IMG/VR virus record: IMGVR_UViG_3300005295_000016
Span: 1 to 22,862 of that record
DNA length: 22,862 nucleotides
From: a virus
Reading direction: 5' to 3' (one strand)
The notes below the pieces were generated by a model. That model ran no database searches. It was given only the letters and a program-made list of their open reading frames with translations, and was not told the origin of the DNA. A program made the position numbers and the translations under genes. Position 1 is the stretch's first letter. Each line of letters begins with the position of its first letter. Shown here piece after piece: positions 5,323-14,215 of the stretch.

Positions 5323-6530
5323 GCGACTTCCTCGACACCGAAGAGGGGCCGCCTCTTCACGATGGTGCGGAGCTGCTCCACTACCGCTTCGTCCGTTACC
5401 ACCGCTTGCCCATCGGTGAACTCTATACGCTGCCCGTCCACCATCAACGCCCGCTTCCTGGACTGGAAGAGCACGCCCTTGCCGTGGATGCGGGGCTTGT
5501 GGCGTAGGGTGATGGCGTCACGGTAGAGCTGGGCGAGTATCTCTAGGGCGGGTAGCTCGTCGTGGTATTTGAGGACGTGGGCCACGCCACGCTGCGCGGC
5601 CTCATAGCGCATGTCGGACGACTGCACCATCTTGCGGATGACGCCCTTGAGGGAGTGCGGCGTTGCGGGCTGGAACGGAAGCCCTCCCCACAGTGAGCGC
5701 ATGCGGCGCAGCGTCCAGTCGTCTGCGCCTGCGATCACGGGCTTGCCCATTGCCCAGGCTTCCACGGAGTTGCAGCCATAGCCGAACAACAGTTGGTCAT
5801 AGACGATGTCGGCCTTGGCCTTCTCCACCAGCGCCACGTCGTTGGTCTGGTTCTCCACCATGACTAGGTCGATGGGCAGCCCCTCGGCCAGCAGTTCGCT
5901 CACGGCCTGTAGGAACAGGTCGGTGTGCTTGAGGGCGCGGTTCGTGGGGCAGTGGACGATCCGTACCCTTCCATCTGGACTACGGTCGTTCAGCGGCCCG
6001 AAGGTACGCAGAGCCGCTACGTCATACGCAGTCGGGAGCCAGTAGAGCTTGTCCGGGGCCGGCCGTTGCAGGTCGATGGTGGAGACGGCCGCGACCATCT
6101 TCCGGTGAGCTGCGATGTCCAGCATGCGCTGCGGGTTGCTGCGGAACATGGAGCCGTGGTGATGGAGCAAGATCGGCTTCTTGTACAGGTCGAACGTCCG
6201 CGCAGCGATGTCCGAGTTGTTGAAGTGGATGACATCGGCCTCGCGGGCATGCTGCCGGATGTCGCCCTGGGTCCGTCTGTCCCACACCTCGCCGCCGGGG
6301 AACTCGAAGTATTGCTGATGGCGGTGATAGCTGCGGATCGTCAGGCCCGCTTCGGGGTGCTTGTCCGCGGCGATGCGGAGGCGGCCCACGACGCCACCGG
6401 GGTCGATCTGGCCGATTGCCAGCGCATTGATGATGGCGGGGTCAGACCCATGCTTCTGCGCAGCCCGAACGTAGCGGGCGTTCTGGCCGTTCGTGTCCAG
6501 GCCATTGGAGATGATGACCGCCTTCGTCAC
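5319..6530 (-). CDS. GT-B glycosyltransferase (family 4-like)
   Basis: This would be a cytosolic enzyme moving a sugar from a nucleotide-sugar donor. Starting at GTG 6530 (GTGA overlap with the preceding stop) it has 403 residues; an open frame reaches 6662 but would run 130 bases into the upstream gene. Features typical of GT-B enzymes are an N-terminal VIISNGLDTNGQN, a mid-chain VHCPTNRALKHTDLF near residue 187, and the donor-site region NSVEAWAMGKPVIAG near residue 255. Its position between lysis and packaging genes is odd. It might decorate virions, DNA or the host surface, for example to block superinfection. The acceptor is unknown. Confidence 0.72.
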   Translation of the reverse strand: MTKAVIISNGLDTNGQNARYVRAAQKHGSDPAIINALAIGQIDPGGVVGRLRIAADKHPEAGLTIRSYHRHQQYFEFPGGEVWDRRTQGDIRQHAREADVIHFNNSDIAARTFDLYKKPILLHHHGSMFRSNPQRMLDIAAHRKMVAAVSTIDLQRPAPDKLYWLPTAYDVAALRTFGPLNDRSPDGRVRIVHCPTNRALKHTDLFLQAVSELLAEGLPIDLVMVENQTNDVALVEKAKADIVYDQLLFGYGCNSVEAWAMGKPVIAGADDWTLRRMRSLWGGLPFQPATPHSLKGVIRKMVQSSDMRYEAAQRGVAHVLKYHDELPALEILAQLYRDAITLRHKPRIHGKGVLFQSRKRALMVDGQRIEFTDGQAVVTDEAVVEQLRTIVKRRPLFGVEEVA

Positions 6531-6874
6531 ATCGGCACCAAGGCGGGCACAGGACGCCACATGGTGTCCGTGGGAGGCGGTGTAACGGCTGGTCCTGCCC
6601 CGTAGCGGATCGTGACTGGGCACAGTCCGGCCGAACGGGGCAGGCCGCAGATATGCTCCCATGCCTCGACGCCGATGTCTGCCACGCGGCCCTTGCGTTG
6701 CATCGCCCTATCGGGGCCGGCGTCATTCGAGGTCATCGTCAGGCATCGCTTCGCGCAGATCGTGACCGTCTGACCGGGGCCACCGGGGAGGGCCAGATAG
6801 TCGTCGCCGTACTTCTCCGGCATCCACGAGGCGACACCGGACACGACAACGGCGGCGACGAGAACCGCCGTCAA
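6527..6874 (-). CDS. Secreted RlpA-like double-psi beta-barrel protein
   Basis: The 115-residue protein begins with a hydrophobic signal-like segment (MTAVLVAAVVVSGVASW) followed by a short domain containing LALPGGPGQTVTICAKRC, SNDAGPDRAMQ, RVADIGVEAW and CPVTIRYG. This pattern resembles RlpA-type double-psi barrels, which include lytic transglycosylases and cell-wall binding proteins; the Asp in SNDAGPD sits where RlpA has its conserved Asp. Two to four cysteines could form disulphides outside the cell. The TTG start overlaps the holin-like stop as TTGA. It probably assists lysis or modifies peptidoglycan. The family call rests on motif memory only. Confidence 0.5.
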   Translation of the reverse strand: MTAVLVAAVVVSGVASWMPEKYGDDYLALPGGPGQTVTICAKRCLTMTSNDAGPDRAMQRKGRVADIGVEAWEHICGLPRSAGLCPVTIRYGAGPAVTPPPTDTMWRPVPALVPM

Positions 6875-7119
6875 CTTGGCCCGCCCGTAGCGGCTTCGGT
6901 GTTGTAGACGACCGGCGTTGCCGCTGCGGCGATCTTAGCCGTGTTGGCCGAGGCCGAGTTACCGGCAGAGTCGCGGATCAGCCAACCGACGACGAGGCCC
7001 AGCAGGGTCCATGCCTGGACGCTATCGCCGCGCTCGTTGTAGATGAGGAAGAAGCACGAGCCGACCACGATGATGGCGATCACGTACTTGGCGATAGTGT
7101 CGATCAGTTCCTTGGTCAC
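6871..7119 (-). CDS. Holin-like small membrane protein
   Basis: The 82-residue protein shows two hydrophobic segments, KYVIAIIVVGSCFFLIY (about residues 11-27) and AWTLLGLVVGWLIR (about residues 36-49), then a polar, alanine-rich tail. The layout and its place directly after the endolysin suit a holin or spanin-like partner that lets endolysin reach the wall. The GTG start overlaps the endolysin TGA. No family is recognised with certainty. Confidence 0.55.
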   Translation of the reverse strand: MTKELIDTIAKYVIAIIVVGSCFFLIYNERGDSVQAWTLLGLVVGWLIRDSAGNSASANTAKIAAAATPVVYNTEAATGGPS

Positions 7120-8006
7120 TTCTTGGCCTCCAGTGCCTTCTTGGATGCCGCGTCAACGCCCTGGTTGAACGTCGTCGCCGTATCGGGAGTGTAGTCAACG
7201 TCCATCTTGAGGAAGACGGCCAGCTCGTCGCCGATCAGCCAGACGTTGCTACGGTCGCCGGGGTTCTCGTCAAGCGGTGGGACGAGTACGCCCTGACCCA
7301 TGACCCGCTTGGTCGTACCCGGCTCCAGGAAGATGTATTCGCGGTCCGCCACCTGCACCGCGGCATGTTTGCCGCCGCCCTTGACCGTTGCGACCCCGCT
7401 TGCGGCTTGAGCCTTCTCGATGACGAGTGCTGGCACTTCTGGTTCCTCCGGGTCGGTGTCGGGGAGCTGGAACCGCGGAGCGCGACCCCAAAATAGCCTC
7501 TTCTCATCGTTACGCTCCCGGCGGGCGAGCTGCTCCATGTATGCCCGCAGTGACGTTAGCCGCATGTACTTGAAGCCGGCGCAAAGCGGGTCGCCCACCA
7601 TCACGGAAGTCTTGTTCCCGTTGAACAACGGGTGGACGTAGACGGCGTGTCCGCGGTCGAAGGTGGCCGAGCATCGGTCGATGGCCGGGAGGGCGTCGTA
7701 CCAGCCCTGCGCGATGACCCCATCGCCGGCATTCAGGGTGCGTACGACATCCTCGAAGGGGTCGGACCGGATGTCCAGGTCTTGCGCCCAGTGGTGCCAC
7801 GCCGTATCGACATGGATGAGGTTGGTTCCCCGACCGATGATATCCGCGACCGTCCGCCCGCAATACGGGATCAGCTGTCCGCCCCACACCGACACCTGAC
7901 CGCCCGTCGTGAAGTCGAGCGCCATCGCCCCGGACTCAAGGGTGCAGATATACGAGTCCAGGTAGGTCGTCGGGTCGCCGAGCTGCCGCCGAAACTGCGG
8001 GATCAC
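7116..8006 (-). CDS. C39-like cysteine peptidase endolysin (putative)
   Basis: The 296-residue protein resembles papain-like C39 peptidases in its first 150 residues: Cys21 in YICTLESGAMAL, His120 in RGHAVYVH and Asp139 in VMVGDPLC form a plausible catalytic triad in the right order. The preceding GDGVIAQGWYDALP fits the same fold. There is no signal peptide, as expected for a holin-dependent endolysin. After a proline-rich hinge near residue 185, the C-terminal 110 residues are unassigned and may bind cell wall or be structural. Neighbouring membrane proteins on both sides form a lysis cassette. The GTG at 8006 overlaps the preceding TGA. A virion-associated peptidase is an alternative. Confidence 0.6.
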   Translation of the reverse strand: MIPQFRRQLGDPTTYLDSYICTLESGAMALDFTTGGQVSVWGGQLIPYCGRTVADIIGRGTNLIHVDTAWHHWAQDLDIRSDPFEDVVRTLNAGDGVIAQGWYDALPAIDRCSATFDRGHAVYVHPLFNGNKTSVMVGDPLCAGFKYMRLTSLRAYMEQLARRERNDEKRLFWGRAPRFQLPDTDPEEPEVPALVIEKAQAASGVATVKGGGKHAAVQVADREYIFLEPGTTKRVMGQGVLVPPLDENPGDRSNVWLIGDELAVFLKMDVDYTPDTATTFNQGVDAASKKALEAKK

Positions 8007-8670: not shown

Positions 8671-8838
8671 CTACCACACCTCTCGGACGATCCAAGCGGT
8701 CGCCAGGACGAAGAACCCGGCTAGCGATGCCGTCGCCAGCCCCAAGGTGAACATCTGGCCTTGCGTCAGGATGTACGACCAGCAGGGGCCGAGGTCATCC
8801 GGGAGGCGGTAGGCGATGAAGGTCTGACAGGGTGTCAC
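8671..8838 (-). CDS. 55-residue membrane protein
   Basis: A GTG at 8838 overlapping the methyltransferase TGA opens a 55-codon frame ending in TAG. Residues 1-25 are polar with two cysteines (TPCQTF, GPCWSY). Residues 28-50 form one membrane helix (MFTLGLATASLAGFFVLATA), followed by WIVREVW. It is the first of a run of small membrane proteins before the endolysin. Function is unknown. Confidence 0.55.
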   Translation of the reverse strand: MTPCQTFIAYRLPDDLGPCWSYILTQGQMFTLGLATASLAGFFVLATAWIVREVW

Positions 8839-9413
8839 GCCACACCCCACTGTGCAGCCATCGCGGCGGCGATGTTGGGATCGGTCCTGCTTCGTTCCTT
8901 CCAGCGTTCGGGACCGGGCGAGGCGTGATGGACACGGGGAATGCGGCCGTCAACGATGTTGGTCGGTTCCAGGGGCGGAAGGTTCTTCAGCCACAGGCAC
9001 GTCGCCTTCGTCTCCGGTGTGCCGAACATCCACGGTTGCACCGTCTGTGTCGGCTTCGGCAGGCCAGCGTGCCGATGCTGAATGGGGTTCTCGACAGCGA
9101 TCCTGGGAACGGGTGCGTCGAGCAATTCCTGGAAGAACTCGGATGCGTCCTCCATCGAGGCCCATCGATGTGGGTTGCGCTCGGTGCCCTTGCCACCGTA
9201 CAGCCACCGTACTCCCGACAGGGCTAGATACGTACAGGGCGGATGAGCAATCAGCAAATCCCACTCGGCGTAAATGACCTCAAAGACGCTGCCCACGTAG
9301 TGCGGCCCCGGTCGCTCTGTTTCCAACAGATCGCAGGACATGGCGTCGTGGCCGCGCTCGATGAACGCGTCCCGCACGATGCCCGAGAACTCGCAGGCTA
9401 CCAGGACTCTCAC
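8835..9413 (-). CDS. Orphan DNA cytosine methyltransferase-like protein
   Basis: This small (192-residue) enzyme has the C5-cytosine methyltransferase hallmarks: VACEFSG at residues 5-11 (SAM-binding motif I), HPPC at 57-60 with the catalytic Cys60, and VENP at 107-110 (motif VI). Further family signatures are TKATCLWLKNLPPL and a C-terminal IAAAMAAQWG. It is much shorter than full Dcm-type enzymes and lacks a large target-recognition domain. No restriction enzyme is adjacent, so it probably protects phage DNA or is degenerate for specificity. The GTG overlaps the preceding TGA. Confidence 0.78.
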   Translation of the reverse strand: MRVLVACEFSGIVRDAFIERGHDAMSCDLLETERPGPHYVGSVFEVIYAEWDLLIAHPPCTYLALSGVRWLYGGKGTERNPHRWASMEDASEFFQELLDAPVPRIAVENPIQHRHAGLPKPTQTVQPWMFGTPETKATCLWLKNLPPLEPTNIVDGRIPRVHHASPGPERWKERSRTDPNIAAAMAAQWGVA

Positions 9414-10450: not shown

Positions 10451-10743
10451 GTCCCGCTCCCTTCCCGCGAGGCTACGCGGCCCTGGAGGGCGGCGCGGAT
10501 GTCACGCGCCATTACGTGCGGGATTGGCTGTAGCGCGTCGTCCAGCCACTCGCCGCCGTCCTCGGCGACGTATCCCTCGGCTATGGCTGATGCCAGTTCG
10601 GCTTCGGAGACGATCAGACAGGCGTCAGGAAGTATCACGAAACCTTCGAGGAGCGCCGCGAGGTTGGCCCGAGCGGTCACGCACCGTTCCTCCGGGCAGA
10701 CCCCGACGGCGTGATGGGCGTAGAGGTAGTCAAGGTCGTTCAT
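10447..10743 (-). CDS. Hypothetical protein, SEAELA paralogue 1
   Basis: The 98-residue acidic protein begins NDLDYLYAHH, has a CPEERC pair, the SEAELA motif near its middle, and a C-terminal helix DIRAALQGRVA. ATG 10743 overlaps the replication protein stop (ATGA). No family is recognised, but the shared motif with the next gene indicates a small local gene family. Confidence 0.65.
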   Translation of the reverse strand: MNDLDYLYAHHAVGVCPEERCVTARANLAALLEGFVILPDACLIVSEAELASAIAEGYVAEDGGEWLDDALQPIPHVMARDIRAALQGRVASREGSGT

Positions 10744-11522
10744 GCTGGCCCCTTCGGTGTTGCGGCTTCGATCATCTTGGCTAGCTCGGCGTTCTGTTCG
10801 CGGGTCCGCCGTGCCCTCTCCGCGAACGATGCGCTGCGCTCCTCCTCCCGGTCCTCGGCCTCGAGCGCGGCGAGCTTCGGCCGGCTGCTGGCGTTCAGGG
10901 CGTCGATGGCACCGAACAGGAATCCCTTGATGTCGCCCTGCTTCGTCCCGGCGCGGGCCAGTCGGTCGAACATCCCGATGACGGCGCGGGAGCCGTGCTG
11001 CTCCACCGCCACGACGAGCTTCTGGTGGTAGCCGTTACCTGGACGAACGTCGCAGCCATGGACAGCCAACCACGACAGAGCCTCCCCCTCCGGGTCGTCA
11101 AAGGGATCGTTTGCCGCGCGTGCGTCCTCCTCGGCTCGGCTATCCTCGGCTCTACCTCGGCTTCGGCCCGGTGTGTACGGACCTTCTGGGTCCCGTCTGG
11201 GTCCCGGTTGGGACCCGTCTGGGTCCCGGCCTGTCCGCTGTCGGGTAGCAGCCGCCGCCCGTTTGGCCCGCTCCGCGTCGAGTCCGTGGATGCGGAACCG
11301 GGAGCCGGTGCCGAGGTCCACGAGGCCAGCCTCGGCCAGCGCGACCACGGCAGACCGGCGAGTCCCAGCCGGGAGCATGGCCGTCGCAGGGTGGGCCTGG
11401 TCCGCTATCAGCAGCAGCCGCAGCCACGTCGCGAGGTTGGCGTCCGAGTCGAAGATCGTGACGAACTTCGGGTCATCGACGATCGACCAGTAGACGCGGG
11501 AGTAACTAGCGCGTTCGCTCAT
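10740..11522 (-). CDS. Replication initiator-like protein
   Basis: The 260-residue protein has the layout of phage replisome organisers. The N-terminus (RVYWSIVDDPKFVTIF, then LAEAGLVDLGTGSRFRIHGL) looks like a winged-helix DNA-binding domain. A charged, unstructured linker follows (residues about 95-145), and then a helical C-terminal domain (YHQKLVVAVEQHG, AVIGMFDRLA, GDIKGFLFGAID). Such proteins bind the origin and recruit the host helicase. It is the best replication gene candidate, since no polymerase or helicase is present. ATG 11522 has AGAGG nine bases upstream, inside the structured leader at 11523-11597. It is one of the few early-region genes not overlapping its upstream neighbour. 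Confidence 0.65.
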   Translation of the reverse strand: MSERASYSRVYWSIVDDPKFVTIFDSDANLATWLRLLLIADQAHPATAMLPAGTRRSAVVALAEAGLVDLGTGSRFRIHGLDAERAKRAAAATRQRTGRDPDGSQPGPRRDPEGPYTPGRSRGRAEDSRAEEDARAANDPFDDPEGEALSWLAVHGCDVRPGNGYHQKLVVAVEQHGSRAVIGMFDRLARAGTKQGDIKGFLFGAIDALNASSRPKLAALEAEDREEERSASFAERARRTREQNAELAKMIEAATPKGPA

Positions 11523-11597
11523 GGTTTCCAGCCTCTAGTGAGAGCAACGTGGCGCGGCGGAGGCTGGAACCGACACCTGACCGCCACGCTGCTCTCA
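11523..11597 (-). promoter_or_regulatory. Interlocked inverted repeats in replication-gene leader
   Basis: The whole 75-base gap is structured. Stem 1 pairs 11539-11554 with 11582-11597 (16 positions; the one mismatch is a G-U pair in the minus-strand RNA). Stem 2 pairs 11526-11535 with 11560-11569 (10 bp, perfect) and covers the Shine-Dalgarno AGAGG. The arms alternate, so the stems form a pseudoknot or, more likely, compete: the connecting loop of three bases is too short to span stem 1 fully. Confidence 0.65.
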
Positions 11598-11819
11598 TCA
11601 TTGTACGCCCTTCGACGCGCCGTAGATACGGCCTCGGCCGTCGTTTGGCAGCCTGCCACCGTTCGGCGTGGGTCGGGCGTAGCATCGACCGTCACGCATC
11701 GCGGCCTCGTAGAAGGCTGCGGGGCAGTCGGCGCATGGACGGATGGCTCCGCGACGGACTCGGGCGGCAGCCTCGAGCCAGCCGGCCAGCTCGTCCGGGG
11801 TCATGCAGTCGTAGGTCAC
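11598..11819 (-). CDS. Hypothetical protein with CADC motif
   Basis: The 73-residue protein begins with a helix (MTPDELAGWLEAAARV), followed by CADCPAAFYEAAMRDGRC, a possible three-cysteine metal site, and a basic tail. GTG 11819 overlaps the HNH stop. Its stop codon touches the 5' arm of the leader structure of the next gene, so ribosomes finishing here could disturb that structure. Function is unknown. Confidence 0.6.
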   Translation of the reverse strand: MTYDCMTPDELAGWLEAAARVRRGAIRPCADCPAAFYEAAMRDGRCYARPTPNGGRLPNDGRGRIYGASKGVQ

Positions 11820-12130: not shown

Positions 12131-12336
12131 ATCGCCAGCTCCATCTGGGCCTTCTCTACGATCCAGTAGCCCTTCCGGCCGTCCGTCCGCTTCCGGCAAT
12201 CGACCGTGTAGCCCGCCGCCCGAGCGTCCGAGACGCGGCCCGTGACATTGACCAGCGATGTGGCGAGGGTGATCTCAAGCGAGGTGGCACCGGGGTTGTT
12301 GCGGAGGAAGGCGATGAGTGTCTGCGTCTGCGTCAT
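12127..12336 (-). CDS. Small winged-helix DNA-binding protein
   Basis: The 69-residue protein reads as a winged helix: TLIAFLRNNPGATSLEITLA, then NVTGRVSDARAAGYTV as the recognition helix, then a wing CRKRTDGRKGYWIV. It is probably an early regulator. ATG 12336 shares a base with the preceding TGA; an in-frame GTG lies one codon upstream. Confidence 0.68.
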   Translation of the reverse strand: MTQTQTLIAFLRNNPGATSLEITLATSLVNVTGRVSDARAAGYTVDCRKRTDGRKGYWIVEKAQMELAI

Positions 12337-13103
12337 CACACCGTCTCACCGAACAGCGGCACCGTCTCGGCCTCCATCGCCGGCAGGATGAACTCCGGCC
12401 CCTTGATGCGCTCGAGGTCGAGCACCTGGTACGTGACCTCTTTCTTGCTGCCCTTCGGGGTGAACGTCTCGTCTCGGATGCGGCCCCACACGCTCACCCG
12501 TTGGCCGATGACGCCCTCGCGCAGGCCAGCGAGGATGTCGGCCATGTCGCCCTTGACGATGACCTTGATGCCACCTGCGGGGCTCACGAGCTTGAACGCC
12601 AGCACCGATCCATCGGGCGACATCTTCGGGAGGAAGTCGGGGAAATCCTTGGCGAGCTCGGCGGTGCCGATGAGGCTGCCGTCTCCGTTGACGAGCGGCG
12701 GCTTGGCGGCGAGCTGCTCCCGCTCCTTGGCGTTCTGTGACGCCGGGGTGATCGGCTCTTCCTTGTTGGCGATTTCGTTCGCGGAGGCAATCGACTTGTC
12801 GATCCCGATGCCCAGCGCACCGATGGCGCGGCCCCACGCGCTTGTCTCGGTGTTCTCCAGCTCGGAGCCACGGGTGAAGTTGGTCGTGCCGGGGAGGACC
12901 ATCCACGACCAGCCCTGACCGGGGAGCGGATCGTCGGGGGTCCTGTAGGCGAACGCCTGGACCCACACCCGCGCGGTGTCGCCGTCCATGCGGACCTTGA
13001 CCTTGCCGGTGACGAGCCGTCCGTCAGGCCATCGCTCGTAGAACATGGCGATGCGGGTGCGGACCTCGACGTAATCCTTGAGCCGGTCCTCGTACTGGCT
13101 CAC
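12336..13103 (-). CDS. ERF-like single-strand annealing protein with OB-like C-terminus
   Basis: The 255-residue protein carries NTETSAWGRAIGALGIGI near residues 83-100 followed by SIASANEI, the signature of ERF/Sak-type annealing proteins used in phage recombination and circularisation. Upstream strands (VTGKVKVRMDGDTARVWVQA) fit that fold. The C-terminal 80 residues (GGIKVIVKGDM, RVSVWGRIRDETF, TYQVLDLERI) look like an OB-fold, so the protein may combine annealing and ssDNA binding. GTG 13103 overlaps the preceding TGA. Confidence 0.65.
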   Translation of the reverse strand: MSQYEDRLKDYVEVRTRIAMFYERWPDGRLVTGKVKVRMDGDTARVWVQAFAYRTPDDPLPGQGWSWMVLPGTTNFTRGSELENTETSAWGRAIGALGIGIDKSIASANEIANKEEPITPASQNAKEREQLAAKPPLVNGDGSLIGTAELAKDFPDFLPKMSPDGSVLAFKLVSPAGGIKVIVKGDMADILAGLREGVIGQRVSVWGRIRDETFTPKGSKKEVTYQVLDLERIKGPEFILPAMEAETVPLFGETV

Positions 13104-13336
13104 GCCGGCACCTTCCGAAGCTCTGCGAACGCGGCCCGCCATGCGCCCCCAGCGGTGGTGTATCCGTACACCTCCGCGGCCAGCCGAAGGTCAGGCGTCA
13201 GGATGCGACACGTCCACCCGCTCATACCGCGGCCGAGGTGGACCCGGTAGTCGGGCGGCTGCGCCGTGGCGATGGCAAGGCGGTTCTGCTCCGTCAACTG
13301 ACGACGGGCGAACGGGGTGGGCTGATGGAGGATCAC
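13100..13336 (-). CDS. Hypothetical early protein
   Basis: The 78-residue protein starts at GTG 13336, sharing a base with the preceding TAG. It has a polar N-terminus and a compact C-terminal half (GRGMSGWTCRILTPDLRLAA, GGAWRAAFAELRKV). Nothing is recognised. A longer frame to 13369 overlaps the upstream gene without need. Confidence 0.6.
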   Translation of the reverse strand: MILHQPTPFARRQLTEQNRLAIATAQPPDYRVHLGRGMSGWTCRILTPDLRLAAEVYGYTTAGGAWRAAFAELRKVPA

Positions 13337-14188: not shown

Positions 14189-14215
14189 GTTATAACAGGG
14201 CTCGGCGGGTGTCAA
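14189..14215 (-). promoter_or_regulatory. Sigma70-type promoter, likely leaderless start
   Basis: On the minus strand a perfect TTGACA (14215-14210) is followed after 15 bases by TATAAC (14194-14189); TAACGT at 17-base spacing is an alternative -10. Only eight bases separate TATAAC from the regulator ATG, so the RNA would begin at or near the start codon. It lies in the 38-base gap between the fibre gene and the regulator. Confidence 0.65.

Follow-up and report, generated by a model that had tools for sequence, protein, structure and literature searches.

The leader of the probable replication gene

The window that we analyzed, a stretch of 22,862 nt, is the record of an uncultured virus for which the phage collection contains no relative. 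On its minus strand, a 260-aa gene is located after recombinase-like and HNH-like genes, and it is separated from a small 73-aa gene by a leader, TGAGAGCAGCGTGGCGGTCAGGTGTCGGTTCCAGCCTCCGCCGCGCCACGTTGCTCTCACTAGAGGCTGGAAACC, that stretches from the TGA stop codon of the upstream gene (11600-11598) to the ATG start codon at position 11522 (Table 1). The recombinase/ssDNA-annealing-like protein of the window is encoded at 12336-13142 (minus strand) and is distantly related to proteins of Gordonia, Bacillus, and Lactobacillus phages (45-29% identity); a DNA methyltransferase gene (8835-9413, minus strand; phrog_757, E 1.7e-58) is present downstream of the replication gene. Homologous loci are referred to below as L001, L005, L006, L007, and L119.

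Table 1. Features of the replication-gene leader and its flanking genes in the window.
Feature	Position	Strand	Remarks
73-aa Cys-containing protein gene	11598..11819	-	Stop codon directly before S1; 76% identical in L007
-10-like hexamer TACAAT	11600..11605	-	Predicted transcription start about 11592-11594
Leader ORF (predicted)	11506..11601	-	ATG 11601 to TAG: MMRAAWRSGVGSSLRRATLLSLEAGNHERTR
S1 5' arm	11582..11597	-	TGAGAGCAGCGTGGCG; covaries with L007
Weak apical stem in S1 loop	11556..11577	-	Nested minimum-free-energy fold
S2 5' arm (anti-SD)	11560..11569	-	TTCCAGCCTC; inside S1 loop
S1 3' arm	11539..11554	-	CGCCACGTTGCTCTCA
S2 3' arm	11526..11535	-	GAGGCTGGAA; with SD GAGG
Replication-initiation-like gene, 260 aa	10740..11522	-	Weak phrog_3926 match (E = 0.0037); L001 homologue 61%
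Four iteron-like direct repeats, 11-bp spacing	11182..11245	-	GGGACCCAGAC-like; within replication gene

Pfam and PDB gave no match to the 260-aa protein, and NCBIfam no convincing one; its homologue in L001 again gives a weak PHROG match to replication initiation (E 0.0077). The direct repeats that the window carries inside its initiator gene also occur mid-gene in the replication genes of L007, L006, and L119. In phage lambda, the origin is located inside gene O, and the repeats of the window, in a lambda-O-like placement, are candidate iterons that may mark an origin. Since the weak PHROG match is joined by the gene context and by internal repeats in the lambda O layout, the designation as a replication gene is likely to be correct.

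The initial annotation of this DNA had described two interlocked stems in the leader, and this description was borne out. The two arms of the 16-position stem S1 are 94% complementary with 27 nt between them; in minus-strand RNA they form 15 Watson-Crick pairs and a single G-U pair, which on the plus strand would read A-C. S2 is a perfect stem (10/10 pairs) whose arms alternate with those of S1, and the loops of the interlocked structure measure 12 (L1), 5 (L2), and 3 nt (L3). The Shine-Dalgarno (SD) sequence AGAGG (11536-11532) occurs 9 nt before the ATG, and its GAGG supplies the four bases with which the S2 3' arm begins; the stop codon of the upstream gene directly precedes S1. The statement that the stems fill the only gap between these early genes is correct for non-coding sequence, with the qualification that an ORF starting with ATG (11601-11506) spans this gap. 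In the nested minimum-free-energy fold, part of the S2 5' arm is taken up by a weak apical stem (GGUG 11577-11574 with CGCC 11559-11556, and GGU 11571-11569 with GCC 11564-11562), as is also the case in L007.

Conservation of the interlocked stems

The stems are not a product of chance, and four loci from uncultured viruses (the window, L007, L119, and L001), two of which (the window and L007) are close in the leader, keep the layout S1a-S2a-S1b-S2b(SD) with differing sequences; in all of these, the arms alternate as in an H-type pseudoknot. When the 110-nt leaders were each compared with 1000 dinucleotide shuffles, interlocked stems as strong as those of the window appeared in at most 1 in 1000 shuffles of its leader. 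The corresponding p values were 0.001 for the window, 0.001 for L007, 0.002 for L119, and 0.004 for L001; for L007, the best interlocked pair in this search differed from the homologous S1 and S2, which were taken from the alignment, because S1 of L007 reaches into the SD zone. At L005 and L006, homologues that are devoid of the stems and in which the upstream ORF instead ends at or next to the start codon, the same score was unremarkable (p = 0.60 and 0.14, respectively). A scan of the whole window for a stem of at least 13 pairs interlocked with one of at least 9 pairs returned just one further place, within the terminase coding region, and the nested fold of the window leader had a z-score of -2.96 relative to shuffles.

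L007 has the same synteny as the window (recombinase 70%, upstream protein 76% identical), and its leader is that of the window, followed by a replication gene that has diverged. Over leader and upstream gene, the two loci are 85% identical in nucleotides (76% in amino acids), but their initiators are just 33% identical. The initial annotation had named a lack of covariation in related phages as a finding that would speak against it; our comparison of these two leaders instead revealed compensating changes in both stems. In S1, an A-U pair is replaced by U-A and one G-C by G-U; in S2, a U-A pair is replaced by C-G and an inserted A is matched by an inserted U; no pair is broken in either stem. 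By comparison, five random substitutions in the arms left every pair intact in only 0.075% of trials. It is only in the sense RNA that the non-Watson-Crick pairs of S1 in these two leaders read G-U. Covariation in related viruses thus supports the claim of a structured RNA leader that is able to bury the SD of the replication gene. Between the window and L007, the leader sequence has remained conserved despite single-base indels by which the frame of the leader ORF is shifted, and selection therefore appears to act on the RNA. These indels shift the frame while pairing in the stems is kept, so that the visible constraint is on the RNA and the ORF may be incidental; a reading based on conservation of a leader peptide was downgraded for the same reason. 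L008, a near-identical copy of L007, was left out of all counts.

The leader of L119 is largely different in sequence, but its GTACAATGA start and its TAGAGG SD are the same. It possesses a 10-bp S2 (CUGCAACCUC/GAGGUUGCAG) and a 13-bp S1 (UGCGGUCGGCCGG/CCGGCUGAUCGCG), while L001 possesses a 10-bp S2 (GGCUACUACC/GGUAGUAGCU) and a 10-bp S1 (GGCGCCCGUC/GGCGGGCGUC); G-U pairs were allowed in the search that found these stems. The loop nucleotides CAGGYGUCGG are conserved between the window and L007 and are poorly kept in L119 and L001. Taken together, we consider it highly probable that the conserved RNA structure is real, and judging from the sequences, the leader very probably is a genuine RNA control element for production of the replication protein.

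Searches against all 4227 Rfam families yielded nothing at the gathering threshold, and the leaders of the window, L001, and L119 produced only matches far below it. No relative of the leader, the replication protein, or the small upstream protein was found in the phage and plasmid collections, nor were relatives found in the bacterial genomes searched. When the conserved loop was searched as a DNA pattern (CAGGYGTCGG..CCGCCGCG), 94 viral stretches matched; the leader was present only in the L007 virus and its near copy, and the remaining matches look like chance. Recombinase relatives at 32-38% identity were left out of the leader comparison.

The L007 replication gene (6845-7384) is diverged and does not have the C-terminal domain found in the window (10740-11522). 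As leader and upstream gene are common to both loci while the replication gene has diverged, an exchange of modules just downstream of the leader is suggested.

Promoter-like hexamers and folding of the leader

A -10-like hexamer is located just upstream of the leader in the window (TACAAT), L007 (TAAGAT), L119 (TACAAT), and L001 (TATAAT); none is present near the start in L005 and L006. Hexamers of the TANNAT form are otherwise very rare in these GC-rich sequences: minus-strand sites with at most one mismatch to TATAAT number 5 in the 22.9 kb of the window, such sites number 2 in 9.9 kb of L001 and 1 in 8.1 kb of L119, and L007 contains two TANNAT sequences in 10.8 kb. Transcription starts predicted 6-8 nt past the hexamer lie within the S1 5' arm, or at its margin, in the window, L007, and L119. 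No -35 box was recognised for the hexamer. From its sequence and position, the hexamer is a probable promoter, and since this rare element stands just upstream in all four loci that carry the stems, the leader probably serves as the 5' UTR of a transcript of its own. This arrangement suggests S1 as the starting point of some or most transcripts, which would then have no upstream ribosome at all.

The initial annotation had treated the two stems as mutually exclusive. This was not upheld by modelling in which the stems were represented as rigid A-form helices and the loops as tethers: clash-free arrangements with both S1 and S2 exist for all four loci, and no linkage has to span more than 3.6 A (5.5 A when S1 of L007 is extended to 18 bp), compared to a tether limit near 6.5 A per linkage. 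An either/or logic is therefore not required, because the geometry lets the stems coexist as a pseudoknot. Nested folding energies favour S1 in the window (-44.9 vs. -38.1 kcal/mol with S2 forced) and in L007 (-46.1 vs. -44.0 kcal/mol with S2 forced), and S2 in L119 (-51.7 vs. -38.9 kcal/mol) and in L001 (-53.3 with S2 forced vs. -50.4 kcal/mol with S1 forced), so that the two states lie about 2-13 kcal/mol apart across the four loci. Crude hand estimates put the pseudoknot at -46 to -31 kcal/mol, values not clearly below those of the nested folds. Masking of the first 12 nt of S1 led to refolding into S2 in silico in the window and in L007. In these models, the energies and the masking result fit a switch as much as a static pseudoknot.

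Proposed control of initiator synthesis

Our best reading of these data is that an SD-burying pseudoknot or a bistable leader controls translation of the probable replication initiator. That the leader controls translation of the replication gene we regard as likely; for the specific model in which a pseudoknot closes the ribosome site, we put the chances at about even. According to this model, the promoter with its -10 hexamer TACAAT (11605-11600) would probably start the transcript inside the S1 5' arm. S1 would be the first stem to form, because its 3' arm is transcribed earlier than the arm with the SD, and would hold the anti-SD strand (the S2 5' arm) in its loop, initially partly tucked into the weak apical stem. 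The emerging SD would then pair with the anti-SD strand to form S2, and the resulting H-type pseudoknot of S1 and S2 would shut the ribosome site. Synthesis of the initiator would be limited, most likely, to a short period after transcription, or until the site is reopened, possibly by a ribosome translating through the leader, by a host factor, or by unfolding of S2. More tentatively, and less likely than not, these leaders could represent a new RNA family of uncultured GC-rich phages, in which a promoter-proximal pseudoknot with the SD built into its second stem shuts off the initiator in a timed or ribosome-sensed manner, the layout being kept as the letters turn over.

Translation from upstream provides the basis for two other explanations, of which positive coupling is a minority possibility that we consider rather unlikely. 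A ribosome that ends the 73-aa gene would restart at an ATGA (the upstream stop codon overlapping an ATG), translate the leader ORF, and melt S1 and S2, whereupon that ribosome or a following one would initiate; without translation of the upstream frame, the stems would keep the gene silent. Since a ribosome translating the leader ORF would melt both stems, activation is predicted, the reverse of the sign proposed in the initial annotation. Consistent with coupling, the ATGA is found at the same place in the window (11601), L007 (6772), and L119 (3314), and the frame stays open to 16 nt past the replication ATG in the window and to 10 nt past it in L007, and that of L119 continues, in frame, into the replication gene. 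The upstream ORF of L001 itself crosses the leader and ends in an ATGA with the start codon, and even where the leader is missing, L006 has a direct stop-start overlap and L005 a stop codon 4 nt before the start. However, at 66% GC an open frame of about 30 codons is nothing unusual; the peptide is not conserved, its middle being altered by indels in S2 and L3 that leave pairing intact; and a transcript starting near 11594 would exclude the ATG of the ORF. The negative attenuator originally envisaged, in which S1 leaves the SD open until a ribosome terminating at 11598 covers the S1 5' arm, thus opens S1 and lets S2 close the site, such that upstream translation lowers the initiator dose, is improbable. 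While the stop codon adjoins S1 or reaches into its edge in the window and L007 (3 nt before S1 in L119), and the shift to S2 upon masking of S1 would suit it, S2 formation need not await the opening of S1, L119 and L001 already have S2 in their optimal nested fold, L001 has no stop codon before S1, and the promoter-like element suggests transcripts that lack the upstream gene altogether.

The conserved loop nucleotides of the window and L007 could also point to a protein-bound operator, with the initiator, the small Cys protein, or a host protein binding the pseudoknot or the loop CAGGYGUCGG and repressing translation in the manner of T4 gp32. We assign this explanation a similarly small chance: the loop motif is poorly kept in L119 and L001, and autoregulation by the initiator is unlikely because the two viruses share the leader while their initiators are only 33% identical. 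It is very improbable that the inverted repeats act solely in the DNA, as operators or as part of an origin, with no RNA fold involved. The position upstream of an initiator-like gene, and in L001 a 16-bp palindrome over the -10 hexamer together with three copies of a 9-mer, would be in line with such a role, but in the window and in L007 the wobble pairs suit the sense RNA only, in each case it is the SD around which the arms interlock, and the 11-bp-spaced repeats inside the gene are the better origin candidate. A reading of the stems as a terminator was dropped, there being no T run.

Judged by analogy, the closest systems in logic are the pseudoknots of IncI repZ (Asano & Mizobuchi 1998, cited in PMC10724649 and PMC10286972) and T4 gene 32. 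In the IncI-alpha plasmid ColIb-P9, a leader pseudoknot reportedly activates translation of repZ and is opposed by an antisense RNA. As proposed here for the window, translation of the repZ initiator is tied to a leader pseudoknot and to a ribosome in an upstream frame. However, the repZ pseudoknot leaves the SD free, whereas the S2 3' arm of the window holds it; because S2 contains the SD itself, the pseudoknot of the window should repress. Unlike for repZ, no antisense -10 element was found near the leader, the sole TATAAT-like plus-strand site of the window (considering TATAAT-type sites only) being at 14191. SAM-II and preQ1 riboswitches are H-type pseudoknots that have the SD inside or next to the 3' arm of their second stem. 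The placement of the SD is alike, but S1 is much longer in our leaders (10-18 bp), for which neither a ligand core nor an Rfam match was recognised. To our knowledge, pseudoknot control of translation in phages has been documented in very few cases. The nearest phage precedent, by analogy, is the autoregulatory pseudoknot of T4 gene 32, which is located 67 nt upstream and serves to nucleate the binding of protein (PMC3014915). Both are replication genes of phages whose 5' leader has an H-type pseudoknot, predicted in our case, but in the window one of the stems directly holds the SD. The timP type I toxin mRNA requires a pseudoknot for its translation, and this structure is the target of the antitoxin sRNA (PMC11228461); the proposed use of alternative leader folds, one of them with a pseudoknot, to set translation is similar, yet timP encodes a toxin and the gene of the window is initiator-like. 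If our reading is true, the covarying, SD-burying leader of a phage initiator would be an independent case linked to the logic of plasmid repZ, and it would provide a compact switch, about 75 nt long, that lends itself to testing.

In L001, a perfect 16-bp palindrome, TACCTCGCGCGAGGTA (5874-5889), overlaps the TATAAT hexamer and is likely a repressor operator on the homologous promoter. The same locus contains the nine-mer GGTAGTAGC at 5903-5911, 5951-5959, and 5989-5997, twice in direct and once in inverted orientation; the first of these copies is close to the predicted 5' end and could rival the SD in pairing with the anti-SD strand.
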